From: Nitrospirota bacterium
GTDB lineage: Bacteria > Nitrospirota > Thermodesulfovibrionia > Thermodesulfovibrionales > Dissulfurispiraceae
Reading direction: 5' to 3'
DNA: 47,017 nt
NCBI GenBank assembly: GCA_016936655.1
Contig: JAFGXL010000009.1
Coordinates: forward strand, 1 to 47,017
The notes beneath the pieces are model-generated. The model had not been told where the DNA came from. It ran no database searches and saw only the letters and a list, made by a program, of their open reading frames with translations. Below, one piece after another: positions 36,469-46,993 of this stretch; position 1 is the stretch's first letter; the number at the start of each line of letters is the position of its first letter. Position numbers and translations under genes: made by a program.

Positions 36469-37518
36469 CTAAGCAACAACCACTCTGTTTTTTCCCATGC
36501 TTTTAGCTTTGTATAAGGCGTTGTCTGCTCTCTTGAGAAGGTCTTCAATGTCTTTTTCAATATCGCCGAACAGTCTGCCCTCTGCTGATCCAATGCTTAT
36601 AGTAACCTTCAAATCACCTAAAGTACGCTCCTCTATGTTGCTTCTTATCTTTTCAGCAACTGCATAGACAGTATCTGAACTGATCTCAGGCAAATAAACT
36701 ATAAACTCCTCTCCCCCATATCTGCCGGCAACATCCGAAGCTCTAATAGATGATTTTATTATTTCAGCTACGCTTTTGATAACTTCATCGCCTTTTTGAT
36801 GACCATATGTGTCATTTATACTTTTAAAGTTATCTATATCCATCATAAGCACGCCTATAGTCATCCCGTTTCTTGCTGCCAGATGTGCAAGAGGTAATAT
36901 TGTATTATTAAAACCTCTCCTATTCAGCAGGCTGCTTAATGGGTCATGACTGGTCTTTAGAACCATATCCTTGTTAGTCTCCCAAAGTTTGTTAATCGCT
37001 TCGCCTATAAGCTCCAGCTCAGGGGTTGATTCTCCATGCTGTTTAAGAGCTGAAGTAAACCTTGAAAGATGATTTTCGTAAAAAGTTGCGGAACTTTTGT
37101 ATTTTGGAAGGCTGTTCTTCATAAAGTAGAAGATTGCCTCAAAAGCTGGTTCAAGCACAAAGAATTCGAGCCGAAGCGCGTATGTAAAATAGTCAGCAAC
37201 TCTCCTGAGATCATTAACAGTTTTTGACAGACTGTTTACTTTTTCAAGTGATTTTTTAAGGTTAGAAAGCACAGTCTCTGGATCATCCAGCAGCATAGGC
37301 ATCTCTCCCTTTTCTGCAAGACTCATAAGCTCTTCCCAAAAAGATACATGAACAGATTCTTCCTTGGACATGCTCATCCAGAATTTTTTGAGATGAGTAT
37401 CAGCGCTCAATTCTGAAAACTTTTTATAAGTACCAACAGCAGCTTTATCCAGCTCAAGACAAATCGATATAATTTCTTTTGTAATCTGCTGATCTCTTGT
37501 AAAGCCCACCGTGCCCAT
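36469..37518 (-). CDS. Diguanylate cyclase with ferritin-like (rubrerythrin-like) N-terminal domain
   Basis: The 349-residue soluble protein probably makes cyclic di-GMP. Residues about 190-349 form a complete GGDEF domain: DPLSSLLNRRGF, metal/base site MMDIDNFKSINDTYGHQKGDEV, GGEEF at 267-271, and the inhibitory I-site RASD at 258-261, so product feedback is likely. Residues about 10-155 are all-helical and look like a four-helix ferritin-like bundle. Candidate iron ligands are Glu22, Glu54 with His57 (an ExxH), Glu118/Glu123/Glu127, and Glu148/His150; the last pair departs from the expected ExxH spacing, so metal binding is not certain. A GGAGGT precedes the ATG. No membrane segment is present. 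The pga operon, a classic c-di-GMP target, lies 2.5 kb away. Confidence 0.9.
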   Translation of the reverse strand: MGTVGFTRDQQITKEIISICLELDKAAVGTYKKFSELSADTHLKKFWMSMSKEESVHVSFWEELMSLAEKGEMPMLLDDPETVLSNLKKSLEKVNSLSKTVNDLRRVADYFTYALRLEFFVLEPAFEAIFYFMKNSLPKYKSSATFYENHLSRFTSALKQHGESTPELELIGEAINKLWETNKDMVLKTSHDPLSSLLNRRGFNNTILPLAHLAARNGMTIGVLMMDIDNFKSINDTYGHQKGDEVIKSVAEIIKSSIRASDVAGRYGGEEFIVYLPEISSDTVYAVAEKIRSNIEERTLGDLKVTISIGSAEGRLFGDIEKDIEDLLKRADNALYKAKSMGKNRVVVA

Positions 37519-39991: not shown

Positions 39992-42889
39992 ATGTTCTGC
40001 AGAAAACTATACGCTGAATTATACAATTCTGCTGTTGCACAAATATGCGCTGCTTTTATAGCTTTATTTTTCTTCTCGATTACTGATGCACATTCCCAGC
40101 AGTTTCAAAATCAGTCAGAAGCAGATACTGCATATGAAGATTCCCGCAGCATGATTGCAAAAGGCGACTATCAAGGAGCTATAACAAAACTCAAGCAATT
40201 CATCACTGATCCTGCCAAGTATCCTAAGCCGGTCTCTGACTATATCGTGCTGCTTTTGTGGACAGGAAGCACAGATGATGCGATAAAAACTTATGAAAAT
40301 CTGCCTGATGGATTCCCAAAAACCGCATTTCTTTTAAGAAATGTGGCAAAAGGATACTATGATAAGCGGAGACCTCAAAATGCTGTATCACTATACAAAG
40401 CTGCTCTTGCAGACACACCTAATGACACTGAGGCGCTCAAAGGGCTTGCTCTAAGCCATATTGAGCTGGGGGATTATGAAAGTGGGTCGGAACAACTTAA
40501 AAACCTGATTACCAAACTTCAAAATGATTCTGATATAAGAATCTTATACAGCACTACTTTATTTAAAGCCGGCAGACACTACGAAGCTATACGATCTTTC
40601 AGGGCAGCCGCCGAATTGTCCCCGGCAAATGCTGAAAATATATACAGAACCAGAGATGCCCTTGTTCAGCGCCTTGCTGATAATGAAAGAATGGAACTCC
40701 TAAAAAAACTCGCTCCATCAGACAGCAACAATCCGTCAGCTGACTATATTGTCATGCTGGCTGCAACAGGACAATACAGCAAGGCTATATCAGAATTTCA
40801 TATGTCAGAAATCAGAAAGAACAACGCTCCTCTTGATGTGCTCAACTGGGTTGCATGGTCTTATTTTAAAATCGATGCAAAGGACAGAGCAAAACAGATT
40901 TTTTCGCAGGTGCTCTCATCACATCCTGAAAACATGCAGGCTACTATAGGCATATCATACTGCCTCTCATCCGAAAACAACAGCAATAAGGCTTTAGAAG
41001 TATTAAGCCCGCTGCAATCAAAATACCCTTACGACATAGATGTTCTTTATGCCAAGGCATATGCTTTTGAACGTTCCGGCGAGTTTATCAAAGCTGTTAA
41101 TGAGTATGACAGGATACTATCAATAGATACTCAAAACATAACAGCAAAGAGGCTGAGACTTTATGCATTATCTGATATTGGAGCTACAACTCCTGCCCTG
41201 CAAGAAACCATCAAGACATTTCCGGATGACAAACTACTGATTGAATCTATAACCGGCAATGCAGCAGTTGACAGGCTGAGATGGGCAGAAAATGAAAAGG
41301 CCATATCCTTACTAAATGAACTTAGAAAAAATCCCGGCAACAGACGCGCTCAACTCGACTACCTTGCTGCATTGTTTGAAAGCAGGGAAACTTCGGAAGC
41401 CATCGAACTATATAAATATCTTGAGAGGCAAAACATTGATCTCCCTGTCTGGATTATTGAGTATGCTGCGGGAGGTTATCTTGATCAGGAGCAGCCCGAC
41501 AGAGCTATGTATCACTACTCAAAAGCTCTAAAGCTTGAGCCGTCATCTTACAAAGCGAGGCTCGGAATGTTTCAAACTCTCAGCATAATGCGAAGATGGG
41601 ATGAAGCTGAAGCGCACTTATCCTCGCTCGAAAAAGAGATATCCGCACCAATAGTTAATGAAAAGCCTAACTTCGGCAAGCTTTCACTTGCTTATGAGAG
41701 AGGATGGTTCCTTATAAGCCAAGACAGGCTGAGTGAAGCAGAAGAACATTTCATGGATTTATACTCAAAAGCTCCAGGCAACACAGAGGCGAGAAACGGG
41801 CTTGCTCATGTGTTTTACTATAGGGGATGGCCACGCAAGGCTTACGAAGAGTTCTCAATAATTTCTAATCTCGAGCCAGAAGAACTCGGCTATAAAACAG
41901 GCCTTATAATTTCAAAAAACGGGCTTGACCAAAAAACAGAAGCAAGGTCTGAAGCTCAAGAAATGCTCTCCAAAAATCCAAAAAGCAGAATTTTGAAAAA
42001 TCTAGTCAGAGATCTAAAGGTGCAGGATTTAGATGAGCTTACAGCCAGCCTAAGCGTAACGAGTGAAGAAGGTGGATTTGGTGATACACAATACTACCTT
42101 TCTTACTCGCATGCTTTTACTCCATATACAAGGGCATATGCATTCCTATACCACGAAAGAAGCCGCGACAGCAACCAGACAAATAACTTTAAACGCGCAG
42201 GATTGGGAATATATCACATTTTTAGCAGATATCTGAGCGCTACACAGCAGCTATCTCTAAATTATGACGATTCTAAAGATATCGGGTCGTTCACATCATT
42301 ATCGTTCACGCCTGATGACCACTGGACATTTTCCGCATCATTTGACAGCTATACTTCAGATGTACCTTTTCGCGCAAGAGTAACCGGCATTTCGTCAAAA
42401 AAGTATGACTTTGGCATTTCATATCGTGTAAGCGAACTTAGCGACTATAGCCTATCGCTAACGAGGTATGACTTTTCAGACTCAAACAAAAGAGACATGC
42501 TGAACCTTGGACACAGCAGACAGATATTTCAGCAGAATGACTGGAAAATGCGGCTCTTTTTTAACTTCTACACATCCAGAAACTCTCTTGATAATGCTGA
42601 ATACTTCAATCCTGATTCAGACTGGAAGTTTTCACTGACCCATATGACAGAACATACACTAAGAAAAATTTACAGGCAATCATGGATACATAGGCTTTAT
42701 ATAACATCTGGACTTTATAAACAAAACGGATACTCGGGCAAACTGGACAAAGCTATAAGATACGAACATGACATCTCGTTTTCAGACACTCAATCTCTTG
42801 TTGTCGGAGCATCCTATGGACAGAATCATTATGATGCCAGCCCTACTAATTCATACACATTTTATATAAACTACAGAGGCCGCCTATGA
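39992..42889 (+). CDS. pgaA: Poly-beta-1,6-N-acetyl-D-glucosamine export porin PgaA (TPR + outer-membrane barrel)
   Basis: The 965-residue protein has a signal peptide (about 1-35, ending AHSQ), a long array of TPR helices through about residue 680 (repeated A-x-x-x-Y/F patterns, e.g. DYQGAITKLKQFI, DYESGSEQLKNLI) and a C-terminal barrel of about 270 residues with alternating aromatic strands, ending YTFYINYRGRL. PgaA exports poly-GlcNAc through the outer membrane; the periplasmic TPR part binds PgaB and de-N-acetylated polymer. It is longer than E. coli PgaA (807), mostly through extra TPR. GAGGG precedes the ATG. It is first in pgaABCD and overlaps pgaB by four bases. Confidence 0.92.
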   Translation: MFCRKLYAELYNSAVAQICAAFIALFFFSITDAHSQQFQNQSEADTAYEDSRSMIAKGDYQGAITKLKQFITDPAKYPKPVSDYIVLLLWTGSTDDAIKTYENLPDGFPKTAFLLRNVAKGYYDKRRPQNAVSLYKAALADTPNDTEALKGLALSHIELGDYESGSEQLKNLITKLQNDSDIRILYSTTLFKAGRHYEAIRSFRAAAELSPANAENIYRTRDALVQRLADNERMELLKKLAPSDSNNPSADYIVMLAATGQYSKAISEFHMSEIRKNNAPLDVLNWVAWSYFKIDAKDRAKQIFSQVLSSHPENMQATIGISYCLSSENNSNKALEVLSPLQSKYPYDIDVLYAKAYAFERSGEFIKAVNEYDRILSIDTQNITAKRLRLYALSDIGATTPALQETIKTFPDDKLLIESITGNAAVDRLRWAENEKAISLLNELRKNPGNRRAQLDYLAALFESRETSEAIELYKYLERQNIDLPVWIIEYAAGGYLDQEQPDRAMYHYSKALKLEPSSYKARLGMFQTLSIMRRWDEAEAHLSSLEKEISAPIVNEKPNFGKLSLAYERGWFLISQDRLSEAEEHFMDLYSKAPGNTEARNGLAHVFYYRGWPRKAYEEFSIISNLEPEELGYKTGLIISKNGLDQKTEARSEAQEMLSKNPKSRILKNLVRDLKVQDLDELTASLSVTSEEGGFGDTQYYLSYSHAFTPYTRAYAFLYHERSRDSNQTNNFKRAGLGIYHIFSRYLSATQQLSLNYDDSKDIGSFTSLSFTPDDHWTFSASFDSYTSDVPFRARVTGISSKKYDFGISYRVSELSDYSLSLTRYDFSDSNKRDMLNLGHSRQIFQQNDWKMRLFFNFYTSRNSLDNAEYFNPDSDWKFSLTHMTEHTLRKIYRQSWIHRLYITSGLYKQNGYSGKLDKAIRYEHDISFSDTQSLVVGASYGQNHYDASPTNSYTFYINYRGRL

Positions 42890-44850
42890 TCGCTAAACTA
42901 ATATGCCTGATATTCATTTTAATAGGTGCAATTTTTTGTTTTTGCCCTGATGACCTGTCTGCCGACAGCAACAAATTTATAGTTCTTTGCTATCATGCTG
43001 TTGTCAAAAACCCGGATCCAAAAGATCCATACACACTGCCATACAGTATTTTTGTGAAACAGATGGAATATCTTAAAGCCAACGAATATAATCCGGTGTC
43101 GCTTGATGAAATACTAAAATCAAAAAAAGGAGGAAATCCGCTCCCTGAAAAAGCAGTTCTGCTCATGTTTGACGACGGCTATATATCTTACAAAGACTTT
43201 ATACTCCCTCTCCTTGAAAAATACGGGTTTCCATCTGTGCTTGCTGTTGTCGGAAACTTTGTTGGTTATCAACCCAAAGATCTTCCTGAACCCGTAATGA
43301 CATGGAATCAGATAAAAGAGGTTTCAAAAAACAGTCTCGTTGAGATAGCTGCACACTCTTATGATATGCACAAAGCTATAAGATATACGCCGCAGGGTAA
43401 TGTTGCAGCTGCTTTCAATGTAAAACTTTTTGATAAAAACAAAAAAACCATAGAAACTTCTGAAGAATATGTTAAACGCATTGAAGAAGACTTCAGCAAA
43501 CAGCAAGACATATTCGAAAAAGAGCTCGGATTCAAACCGAGGGCTATGGTCTGGCCATATGGCAAATATAACCAAGCTGCTATTGATGCTGCAATGAGAT
43601 TCGGATACCAGTTCGCATTCACCCTTGAAAACGGCTGGGGCACAACTGAAGACCTGTTCAAAATTAAAAGAAATATGCTGCTTACAGAGCCACTTGATGA
43701 ATTTCTTAAAAGCCTTAAGGCAGAATATGATCCAATGAGGGAATTCATAAAGATGATCAAAAACCCTCAGGAAGACAAAAAGCTGATCAGAGCTGTTCAA
43801 GTAGATCTTGATCTCATATACGATCCTGACCCTGCACAGGTGGAAAAGAATCTCGGAAGGCTGATAGACAGACTTGTAGAGATGAGAGTAAATACAGTAT
43901 TTCTTCAAGCATTTGCTGATCCTGACGGCAACGGCAATATCAAAAGCGTATATTTCCCTAACAGGGTGCTGCCTGTAAGGGCAGATATCTTCAGCTATGC
44001 TGCACACCAAATATACATTCGCGAGATACAGGTTTATGCATGGATGCCGACACTCAGCATCGAACTTCCTGACAAAAAACTGAATGAAAGCCTGAGGGTC
44101 AGGGCATTCTCAAATGGCAGCATCAGCCCTAGCACATCATGGTACAACAGGCTTTCTCCATTCAGCGAAAAAACGCTCAGAGCAATCCGCATGCTGTATG
44201 AAGACCTCGCATCAAACAGCCAGATAGACGGGATCCTGTTTCAGGATGACGCATACCTGAATGATTTTGAAGATTTTCATCCTGATGCTGCTGATTTGTT
44301 TAAAAATACTTTTGGCAAAGAGCTCTCATATGAAACTTTGAAATCAGATTCAGCTCTTTTCAGAAAATGGACATCTCTAAAAACAAAGACCCTTACAAAA
44401 TTTCTTGATGAGCTAAAAGGCGCTGTAAGATACTGGAGACCTGAAGCAAAATTCACCAGAAATATTTACGCAGAAGCTGTACTGAATCCTTATGCGGAAG
44501 AGTGGTATGCACAGAATTACAAAAGCTTTCTACAGAATTATGATTTTGTCACCATAATGGCATATCCACAGATGGAGAAGGCTAACGATCCGCTCAAGTG
44601 GCTAAATACACTTGTTCAGACAGTCAGGAATTATGACGGAATCAAGAAGACGATATTCAAAATACAGACATATGACTGGGACAAAAAAGTGTGGATAAGC
44701 GACTCTCTTTTAAACAGCCAGCTCCGTACGATACTTAAAAATGGCGGTCTGCATCTTGCATACTACCCTGATGACTATACAATTAACAAACCTATGTTAA
44801 ATAAAATAAAACTCGAAATGTCCACAAAGACATACCCATTCGGCCCATGA
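42886..44850 (+). CDS. pgaB: Poly-beta-1,6-N-acetyl-D-glucosamine N-deacetylase PgaB (deacetylase + glycoside hydrolase)
   Basis: The 654-residue protein has an N-terminal signal segment (about 1-26), then a CE4 polysaccharide deacetylase domain (about 30-290) with FDDGY (95-99) and HSYDMH (His157, His162) metal motifs and a WPYGKYN loop. The C-terminal GH153-like domain (about 300-650) begins RAVQVDLDLIYDPDP and has GILFQDDAYLNDFED acids. PgaB partly deacetylates poly-GlcNAc, needed for export, and the second domain can cleave the polymer. In E. coli it is a lipoprotein; here AIFC at 15-18 is a poor lipobox (Phe before Cys), so anchoring may differ. Both ends overlap neighbours by ATGA. Confidence 0.95.
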   Translation: MIAKLICLIFILIGAIFCFCPDDLSADSNKFIVLCYHAVVKNPDPKDPYTLPYSIFVKQMEYLKANEYNPVSLDEILKSKKGGNPLPEKAVLLMFDDGYISYKDFILPLLEKYGFPSVLAVVGNFVGYQPKDLPEPVMTWNQIKEVSKNSLVEIAAHSYDMHKAIRYTPQGNVAAAFNVKLFDKNKKTIETSEEYVKRIEEDFSKQQDIFEKELGFKPRAMVWPYGKYNQAAIDAAMRFGYQFAFTLENGWGTTEDLFKIKRNMLLTEPLDEFLKSLKAEYDPMREFIKMIKNPQEDKKLIRAVQVDLDLIYDPDPAQVEKNLGRLIDRLVEMRVNTVFLQAFADPDGNGNIKSVYFPNRVLPVRADIFSYAAHQIYIREIQVYAWMPTLSIELPDKKLNESLRVRAFSNGSISPSTSWYNRLSPFSEKTLRAIRMLYEDLASNSQIDGILFQDDAYLNDFEDFHPDAADLFKNTFGKELSYETLKSDSALFRKWTSLKTKTLTKFLDELKGAVRYWRPEAKFTRNIYAEAVLNPYAEEWYAQNYKSFLQNYDFVTIMAYPQMEKANDPLKWLNTLVQTVRNYDGIKKTIFKIQTYDWDKKVWISDSLLNSQLRTILKNGGLHLAYYPDDYTINKPMLNKIKLEMSTKTYPFGP

Positions 44851-46108
44851 AGTCAGCAATACTTTCTATAGTTCAGTTTATTAACGATTTTGTATATATA
44901 TATCCTCTGTTCATGTCATTTGCATGGATATTTGGTGCGATACTGTTTTTTATAAGACGAGAACGGAGCAATCAATATGCACCAAAACTAGACAGCTATC
45001 CGCTCTGCTCCATCATAATTCCATGCCACAATGAAGAAGACAATATAAAAAAACAATAAGCTGGCTCGCCACAGCTCAGAAATATCCTGATTTTGAAATT
45101 ATAGCTGTTGATGACGGAAGCACAGACGCTACCGCATATATACTTCATGAACATGCTCTTAAGTATAAAAATGTCCGCATTGTTTATCTTAAGGAAAATC
45201 AGGGCAAGGGAGCTGCATTGACTGCCGGTACGCTTGCAGCAAACGGCGATATAATAGTAACTATTGATGCTGACGCACTGCTGGATCAAGACGCTCTCAC
45301 ATGGATTGTATGGCACTTTAACCAATCATCGAGGGTAGGAGCTGTAACTGGCAATCCAAGGGTACTTAACCGCACAACACTGCTAGCAAAGATACAGACA
45401 GGAGAATATGCAACCATTATCGGGCTTATTAAGCGTTCACAGAGGATCCTCGGCAAGGTGCTGACTGTTTCAGGAGTTATCGCAGCATTCAGAAGACAGG
45501 CTCTGGAATCTGTAGGCTACTGGGATACAGATATGGTTACTGAAGATATATCAGTAACATGGAAACTAGAACGGAGGTTCTGGGATGTCAGGTATGAGCC
45601 AAAAGCTATAACCTGGGTGCTTGTGCCAGAGACAATCAAAGGGCTTTGGCGCCAGAGGTCAAGATGGGCTCAGGGAGGAATGGAGGTATTAAAACGTAAT
45701 ATAGATATTTTTGCAGACTGGAGACAGCGAAGGCTCTGGCCTGTATATATAGAGTACCTATTCAGCGCTCTTTGGGCATATACTTTCTGGGCTCTAGTTT
45801 TCCTCTGGATAGTCAAAGCTGCTACAGGATTTGACTTCGGCATTGTACTTGTACCGCCTGTTCCTCCCCAATGGACAGGAGCAATGCTGGCGCTAACATG
45901 TCTGATACAGTTCAGCATAAGCGCATATATTGACCACTTTTACGACAAGAAACTTTTTAAATATCTCTTTTGGGTAATTTGGTATCCATTCATATACTGG
46001 ACTATAAGCGCGCTTACTGTAGTATATGCAACACCTAAAGCGCTTATGAAAAAAAGAGGATCTCGAGCTATATGGAAAAGTCCAGACAGAGGATTGGGAA
46101 TTAAATAG
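44847..46108 (+). CDS. pgaC: Poly-beta-1,6-N-acetyl-D-glucosamine synthase PgaC, interrupted by a -1 frameshift at an A7 run
   Basis: GT2 synthase that polymerises UDP-GlcNAc at the inner membrane. The first frame (44847-45059) covers the N-terminal membrane helix and SIIIPCHNEEDNIKK, then Gln and stop. After a -1 shift at 45047-45053 the second frame runs uninterrupted to 46108: TISWLATAQKYPDFEIIAVDDGSTDAT, ENQGKGAAL, TIDADALLDQDA, TEDISVTW, RQRSRWAQGG, and C-terminal membrane helices. Joined, the protein is about 420 residues with every catalytic motif. The shift falls in the middle of the conserved N-E-E-x-N-I-x-x-T-I motif, so the two pieces are one gene. The cause may be programmed slippage, a lesion or a sequence error. 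It overlaps pgaB by ATGA and abuts pgaD. Confidence 0.85.
45047..45076 (+). promoter_or_regulatory. Possible -1 frameshift signal in pgaC
   Basis: A run of seven A (45047-45053) is read in frame as the last A of ATA followed by AAA AAA, i.e. a slippery A-AAA-AAA heptamer. One codon later the zero frame stops (TAA 45057-45059). After a 5-base spacer, AGCTG (45059-45063) can pair with CAGCT (45072-45076). A -1 slip restores Thr-Ile-Ser-Trp, the family consensus. The stem is short, so stimulation would be weak. Confidence 0.45.
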
Positions 46109-46564
46109 ATGGGTAAAGAGATAAAAATAATTGAACGGCCTGATCTAAAAAGCGGAATCAGAAATGTTACAGAAACAGGAATAACAGCATTTATGTGGGC
46201 TGCATGGATATATCTGCTTATGCCAGTTCTTAATATACTGTTATGGATAGTAGGAATTCGAATATTCTATATAGAACTTATAGAAAAATCAGGCTTTGCC
46301 CGTGTCCTTGATATGATTTATAACATCGGCTGGATAGCTGCAGTTGTATTTATCTCATTCTGGCTCTGGGGATACTATAATCTTAAGCGATATGGAAAAT
46401 TACAGAGGCGTAAAAATCTTGAACACAGATGTGACCAAAAAATATTAGAATCACTAGGCATATCTCCGGAGCTTCACCAGCTTATGCTGACACAAAAGGA
46501 GATAGAATTTCAGTGGCGCATCGACTCCATCAATGCTGCTGAAGAGGAAACCAGACTTAGTTAA
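46109..46564 (+). CDS. pgaD: PgaD-like accessory subunit of the poly-GlcNAc synthase
   Basis: The 151-residue inner-membrane protein has two membrane helices (about 28-50 and 70-92) and a charged cytosolic tail with a coiled-coil character. E. coli PgaD shares this layout and, with PgaC, forms the cyclic di-GMP receptor that switches the synthase on. The ATG immediately follows the pgaC stop (TAGATG), so translation is coupled. It completes the pgaABCD order. The last 8 bases overlap the 3' end of the convergent receiver-domain gene. Confidence 0.85.
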   Translation: MGKEIKIIERPDLKSGIRNVTETGITAFMWAAWIYLLMPVLNILLWIVGIRIFYIELIEKSGFARVLDMIYNIGWIAAVVFISFWLWGYYNLKRYGKLQRRKNLEHRCDQKILESLGISPELHQLMLTQKEIEFQWRIDSINAAEEETRLS

Positions 46565-46979
46565 GTCCTGTCTGCATATACCAAGGGGTATCTTCCGGTT
46601 TCTTGATGCCAAAAAGCTTGTATATGTTGTCGCAGAGCTGATCTGCTGTAAAAGGCCTTATAAGAACTCCGCTTGCTGTCTTGGACTGTATCATATCAAC
46701 TATCTCCGGCTTAGGCGTCTCTGTAGATACGATCAGGAGTATCTTCAAAAAAGGCTTTTCCGCTTTTATTGATTTGGCATATTCAACAGTAGATTCCTTG
46801 CCAAGGTGAGAGTCTAGGATTATTACGCAGTTTTCTGTCATATCTCCAAGCAGCATGCCCAAATGCTTGGTATCATCAGCATACCTTATCTTTATCTGCC
46901 TCTCAAATTCCTTAAGCGCAAAGCTGATAGGATTTACAAGATCTTTTTTTACACAAACAAGTACATTCTTGCGCGACAT
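46557..46979 (-). CDS. Degenerate response-regulator receiver domain protein
   Basis: The stand-alone CheY-like domain has about 140 residues. The strand-Asp motif is kept (VIILDSHLG, Asp at position 57 counting from ATG 46982), but the acidic pair normally near residues 12-13 is replaced by KKD, and the conserved Lys of KPF is Arg (LIRPFTADQL). Phosphorylation chemistry may therefore be weakened. No output domain is fused. Two consecutive ATGs exist (46982 and 46979); the second has better spacing from GGAGG. A TATAAT lies at 46994-46999, so a promoter may run off the window. Convergent overlap with pgaD (8 bases) is notable. Partner kinase unknown. Confidence 0.8.
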   Translation of the reverse strand: MSRKNVLVCVKKDLVNPISFALKEFERQIKIRYADDTKHLGMLLGDMTENCVIILDSHLGKESTVEYAKSIKAEKPFLKILLIVSTETPKPEIVDMIQSKTASGVLIRPFTADQLCDNIYKLFGIKKPEDTPWYMQTGLN

Positions 46980-46993
46980 CATGCCTCCAATGC

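Follow-up and report, generated by a model that had tools for sequence, protein, structure and literature searches.

A gene on the minus strand of the window, by which we mean the whole 47,017-nt stretch of Nitrospirota DNA analyzed here, encodes a 349-aa diguanylate cyclase (36469..37518) whose N-terminal domain is, almost certainly, a ferritin-like four-helix bundle fused to a GGDEF domain. As a whole, the protein is best explained as a soluble cyclase that takes a metal or redox input through this bundle and probably feeds production of the biofilm polysaccharide PNAG, a reading to which we assign a probability of roughly 0.45.

The cyclase gene and its GGDEF domain

The open reading frame runs from 37518 to 36469, begins with ATG, and has a GGAGG ribosome-binding site closely 5′. 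Its GGDEF domain (residues 190–345; 36484..36951, minus strand) was identified by Pfam PF00990 (E 1e-43, 149 bits against a cut-off of 23.8), TIGR00254 (7e-49) and an own-genome search, and a GGDEF-type fold was also matched by the full-length model in the structure search. The motif RASD-x5-GGEEF at residues 259–272 retains both the RxxD I-site and the GGEEF active site (A-site), as the preliminary description of this DNA had reported, and the Asp positions of c-di-GMP cyclases (DIDNFKSINDTYGHQKGD) were found in the translation; judged from its sequence, the protein is very likely an active cyclase. The genome (2.0 Mb in 42 contigs, 97% complete) contains 14 GGDEF matches and three PilZ matches. 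Because an ortholog from the same genus (genome G019) is 61% identical to the window protein across the N-terminal part, the fusion of the two domains is not an artefact; the closest named relative comes from a Nitrospiraceae MAG (L031).

Ferritin-like fold of the N-terminal domain

Since full-length fold searches were swamped by GGDEF domains, the N-terminal domain was folded separately, with AlphaFold2 pLDDT values of 93 for the full-length protein and 91 for the domain alone. The bundle spans residues 8–161 (37036..37497, minus strand), with helices at 8–37, 41–69, 107–121/124–136 and 138/143–161 and a crossover at 80–98 (124–133 and 143–161 being alternative limits), giving the antiparallel arrangement of two hairpins joined by a long crossover that characterizes ferritin-like proteins. 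All 50 of the 50 matches listed by VIA-align were structures of the ferritin superfamily, led by 3ezu (Z 14.4; 2.8 Å over 143 residues) and TM1526 (1vjx, Z 12.6; 3.1 Å over 144), followed by ferritins, bacterioferritins, Dps and YciF at Z 10–11. Because scores of Z 10–13 fall in the tool's warning range for helical bundles, the case for the fold rests on the uniformity of this list together with the sequence evidence. Foldseek returned a single match below 0.001, again 3ezu (7.8e-4).

Profile searches gave the same result. A profile built from the cyclases only (A2) matched 3ezu (9e-61), 1vjx (2.5e-5), EncFtn (9e-4) and EncB (7e-3) in the PDB, and with stand-alone relatives added, the match to 1vjx reached 2.1e-8, followed by symerythrin, designed diiron proteins and ferritins. 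By hhalign, the N-terminal domains of the cyclase family aligned with rubrerythrin-like proteins (A5, 3.2e-6) and with EncFtn (A4, 6.4e-6). The Pfam Rubrerythrin model PF02915 was matched by 13 of 31 N-terminal domains (E up to 0.01), and one relative (L059) passes its curated cut-off with 26.8 bits against 22.8; the window domain, at 15.1 bits, falls below that threshold. The preliminary description had read the N-terminal half as all-helical, ferritin-like and fused to GGDEF, and the structure prediction and fold search that it proposed as a check indeed yielded a ferritin-like bundle and not another fold.

Hemerythrin and CZB are metal-sensing helical bundles that both occur on diguanylate cyclases (PMC8846402), which makes one of them misread as ferritin-like an obvious alternative. 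This explanation is largely refuted and very improbable: neither family's Pfam models matched at E values up to 10, and the structural and profile matches were ferritins, EncFtn, rubrerythrin and symerythrin. Both identities were rejected on these grounds.

A putative metal site

By hhalign, the candidate site reads D / ExxH / E / YxxH, with all positions on the minus strand. D24 (37447..37449; D, E or N in the family) aligns with the Glu that rubrerythrin-like proteins carry in helix A, and their ExxH is matched by E54 and H57 of the helix-B motif E54-S-V-H57 (37348..37359). In the second half, an alignment of residues 100–164 with the rubrerythrin-like protein L066 places E118 (37165..37167) on the helix-C Glu, H150 on the His, and Y147 on the Glu of the second ExxH, so that helix D carries Y147-x-x-H150 (37069..37080) with Tyr where the canonical Glu stands. 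L066 (1498–1950, minus strand) is a stand-alone protein of 151 aa with the full E/ExxH/E/ExxH set, and it aligns in turn with TM1526, bridging the sensor domain to that structure. As the second hairpin gave no alignment with the bacterial rubrerythrin-like profile A5 (E 0.13) and aligned with the closer stand-alone relatives (A6) alone, the assignment of E118, Y147 and H150 rests on this bridge. Measured against a canonical diiron site, the first helix pair thus has the expected E and ExxH by alignment, with Asp24 for Glu, while the second has E118 but YxxH in place of ExxH.

Among 54 relatives, E118 is conserved in 52, H57 in 49, Y147 in 45, H150 and D/E24 in 40 each, and E54 in 33, and the mean conservation of these six positions was beaten by none of 100,000 random polar sextets. 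The acidic and His residues listed as ligands in the preliminary description were therefore only partly the right ones: E54, H57, E118 and H150 were retained, E22 gave way to D24, and E123 is Glu in the window protein yet usually His in relatives. E22 and E148 are not conserved (entropy ranks 80 and 66 of 152) and were rejected as ligands. The second motif had correctly been called imperfect; it is not Glu148-x-His, however, but Y147xxH150, a form shared by most of the family.

All five ligand positions are kept in 21 of the 50 fusion-family sequences (the window protein and 20 of 49 relatives), which are spread over relatives in Nitrospirota, Planctomycetota and Desulfobacterota, with deep branches in several phyla among them. 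In the other 29 the set is eroded; since many of these keep an intact GGEEF, the combination of this fold with a cyclase does not always require metal. Erosion affects a Geobacter/3EZU clade (E,T,H,Q,Y,Y at the six positions), a clade with N24, a DNHEYF clade and a trio carrying Y24, M54 and N150. In this trio (L056, L063 and L065) the GGDEF motif is degenerate as well, and these proteins are possibly c-di-GMP receptors or pseudo-enzymes. A further group (L084, L086–L089, L091–L095, L097 and L098) has NxxH for ExxH, several members also with F150 and K/Q53, and an intact GGEEF.

On a tree without a resolved backbone, the simplest reading of this pattern is an ancestral metal site that was lost repeatedly. 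For the window protein, we infer from the site alignment that metal binding is plausible, at about even odds: its own ligand set is complete, as are those of 20 of the 49 relatives, yet several clades show erosion.

Distribution of the family and its relation to 3EZU

Scanning genome contigs with the single N-terminal domain found nothing, while an alignment-based scan found 12 loci. The family is sparse. It occurs in 6 of 396 genomes (E 1e-10) from the phylum of the window, in 13 of 395 from that of G402 and in 31 of 389 from the order to which G406 belongs. The search for the same fusion in related genomes that had been suggested beforehand thus recovered it, both in the same-genus ortholog and across the fusion family. 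In six other proteins (L057, L059–L062 and L064), the N-terminal domain precedes a short C-terminal module that is rich in Cys and resembles a zinc ribbon (CxxC...CPxC), with no GGDEF domain; the two of these modules searched against Pfam (L057 and L059) had no match. Because it is joined to this module too, the ferritin-like domain appears to act as a portable input domain.

The best structural match, 3EZU, is a GGDEF protein of Geobacter sulfurreducens (NP_951600.1; JCSG, 2008) that is homologous to the window protein over residues 12–348 (E 1.8e-60). For GSU0542, which we take to be the locus tag of NP_951600, no paper was found in the open-licence literature, nor was any account there of the 3EZU N-terminal domain or of a ferritin-like cyclase sensor, although fold databases may well class the domain. 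A JCSG survey lists 3EZU among proteins whose function is unknown and shows it with an unidentified ligand (PMC2954221), and another paper included its GGDEF sequence among those aligned (PMC4215984). The two proteins share domain order, full-length homology and the fold of the N-terminal domain, and differ in that 3EZU has an eroded metal site (T54, Q118, Y150), a DGDEF-type motif and the unidentified ligand. The preliminary description, which knew of no described ferritin-like cyclase, consequently needs qualification: the fusion architecture has been in the PDB since 2008, while its reading as a ferritin-like sensor is apparently new. The sensory domains for c-di-GMP reviewed in 2022 (PMC8846402) include hemerythrin, globin, CZB and others, but none that is ferritin-like.

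The 3EZU ligand also bears on the main rival explanation, in which the bundle holds no metal and forms a pocket for a small organic molecule, built around H57, Y147, R/K116, W61 and, in most relatives, H123, and the metal ligands are relics. Across the family, H57, Y147, R/K116 and W61 outlast E54, D24 and H150, lineages without the full site retain an intact GGEEF, and 3EZU itself, which lacks the full site, was deposited with that ligand, although the survey text does not give its position (PMC2954221). Set against this, E118 is present in 52 of 54 relatives, the lineage of the window and other deep branches retain the complete ligand set, and the usual H123 is Glu in the window protein, which gives it a carboxylate-rich core. 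For these reasons taken on both sides, we regard a metal-free pocket as somewhat unlikely.

Proposed signaling and comparison with known sensors

Between sensor and cyclase lies a signaling helix (residues 166–190, TPELELIGEAINKLW...; 36949..37023, minus strand) that forms one continuous helix in the AlphaFold2 model and is 84% identical to the ortholog, compared with 60–62% elsewhere in the protein. The sensor's job is probably metal, oxygen or redox sensing; that the window cyclase itself answers to O2, redox state or iron is a more tentative proposal. The fold, the order of the domains, the intact motifs of the cyclase, the pattern of conservation and the gene order are computational results; metal binding, this signal, the direction of response and the tie to pga are what we infer. 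Under the metal/redox reading, the input would be a rubrerythrin-type bundle in which D24, E54, H57, E118 and H150, with Y147 close by, bind iron (one ion or two) or a related metal. How the site is loaded or oxidized would be passed on as a movement of helix D and of the signaling helix. That movement would set how the GGDEF domains are arranged in their dimer, and thereby the synthesis of c-di-GMP. A search for cytochrome bd found none, which we counted against a metal- or redox-sensing cyclase.

Compared with TM1526 (1VJX) and other rubrerythrin/ferritin-like diiron proteins (PF02915), the window protein has the same two-hairpin four-helix bundle with aligned E and ExxH positions, but its helix-A ligand is Asp, its second ExxH is YxxH, and a GGDEF output is fused to it. 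Functional parallels are the Vibrio cholerae hemerythrin-GGDEF protein VcBhr-DGC and Bhr-HD-GYP, in which a helical non-haem iron module governs c-di-GMP turnover (PMC8846402), as we propose here; these hemerythrin systems differ in fold and in their His-rich ligand set. Escherichia coli DgcZ (CZB-GGDEF) likewise has a metal-sensing helical N-terminal domain on a cyclase (PMC8846402), in its case a zinc His3Cys site on another bundle, and the window protein has no sequence match to CZB.

Gene neighborhood and the pga operon

The cyclase gene lies in the co-directional row nnr - pgeF - cyclase - CBS - tsaE - nadK. In its immediate neighborhood no iron or oxygen-stress genes were found, the nearest being these housekeeping genes and pga. 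Such surroundings are in keeping with another explanation, that the ferritin-like domain serves dimerization and stability only and that cyclase activity is constitutive or set by protein partners or by expression, as is the loss of ligands in several lineages that keep the cyclase. We consider this unlikely, because conservation at the site far exceeds that of other polar positions and the domain also occurs on the Cys-rich module, which fits a portable input domain.

The pgaABCD operon for PNAG (39992..46564, plus strand) starts 2.5 kb upstream of the cyclase, divergent from nnr. It was identified by TIGR03939, TIGR03938, TIGR03940 and TIGR03937, the last with a match 5.6 bits below cut-off on a truncated frame, and its gene order is conserved in G019. 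In the window, pgaC (44805–46108, plus strand) is in two frames, split at an A7 run near 45050, and is a single open frame in the same-genus relative; the split may be an assembly error, a pseudogene or slippage. At the pgaD end, a small protein (46557–46982, minus strand) that looks receiver-like by eye and has no NCBIfam match is 93% identical in the same-genus genome, above every pga gene.

The whole arrangement of cyclase and pga recurs in G019, the only other genome of the genus, and in none of the remaining members that were examined. Among the 31 family genomes, PgaB is present in two, the same two that carry the close form of the cyclase, and absent from a third with a distant cyclase; co-occurrence within the genus is one phylogenetic event and therefore weak evidence. 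In E. coli, the PgaCD synthase needs c-di-GMP, and DgcZ feeds PgaCD and PNAG synthesis. The same output is proposed for the window cyclase: in this genus, PgaCD of the neighboring operon would be the consumer of its c-di-GMP and the PNAG matrix the product. From a gene order seen in one genus only, PNAG as a main output is possible, at somewhat less than even odds. The most specific form of the proposal is a new class of c-di-GMP input in which a non-haem iron site with Tyr among its residues would detect O2, peroxide or ferrous iron, switch the cyclase and, in this genus, drive PNAG production; this we hold to be rather doubtful.

Implications

About 50 natural relatives would allow intact and eroded sites to be compared within one family, and the 3EZU structure would gain both a family and a testable function. 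If the site does hold metal, sensing would be added to storage and catalysis as a role of ferritin folds.
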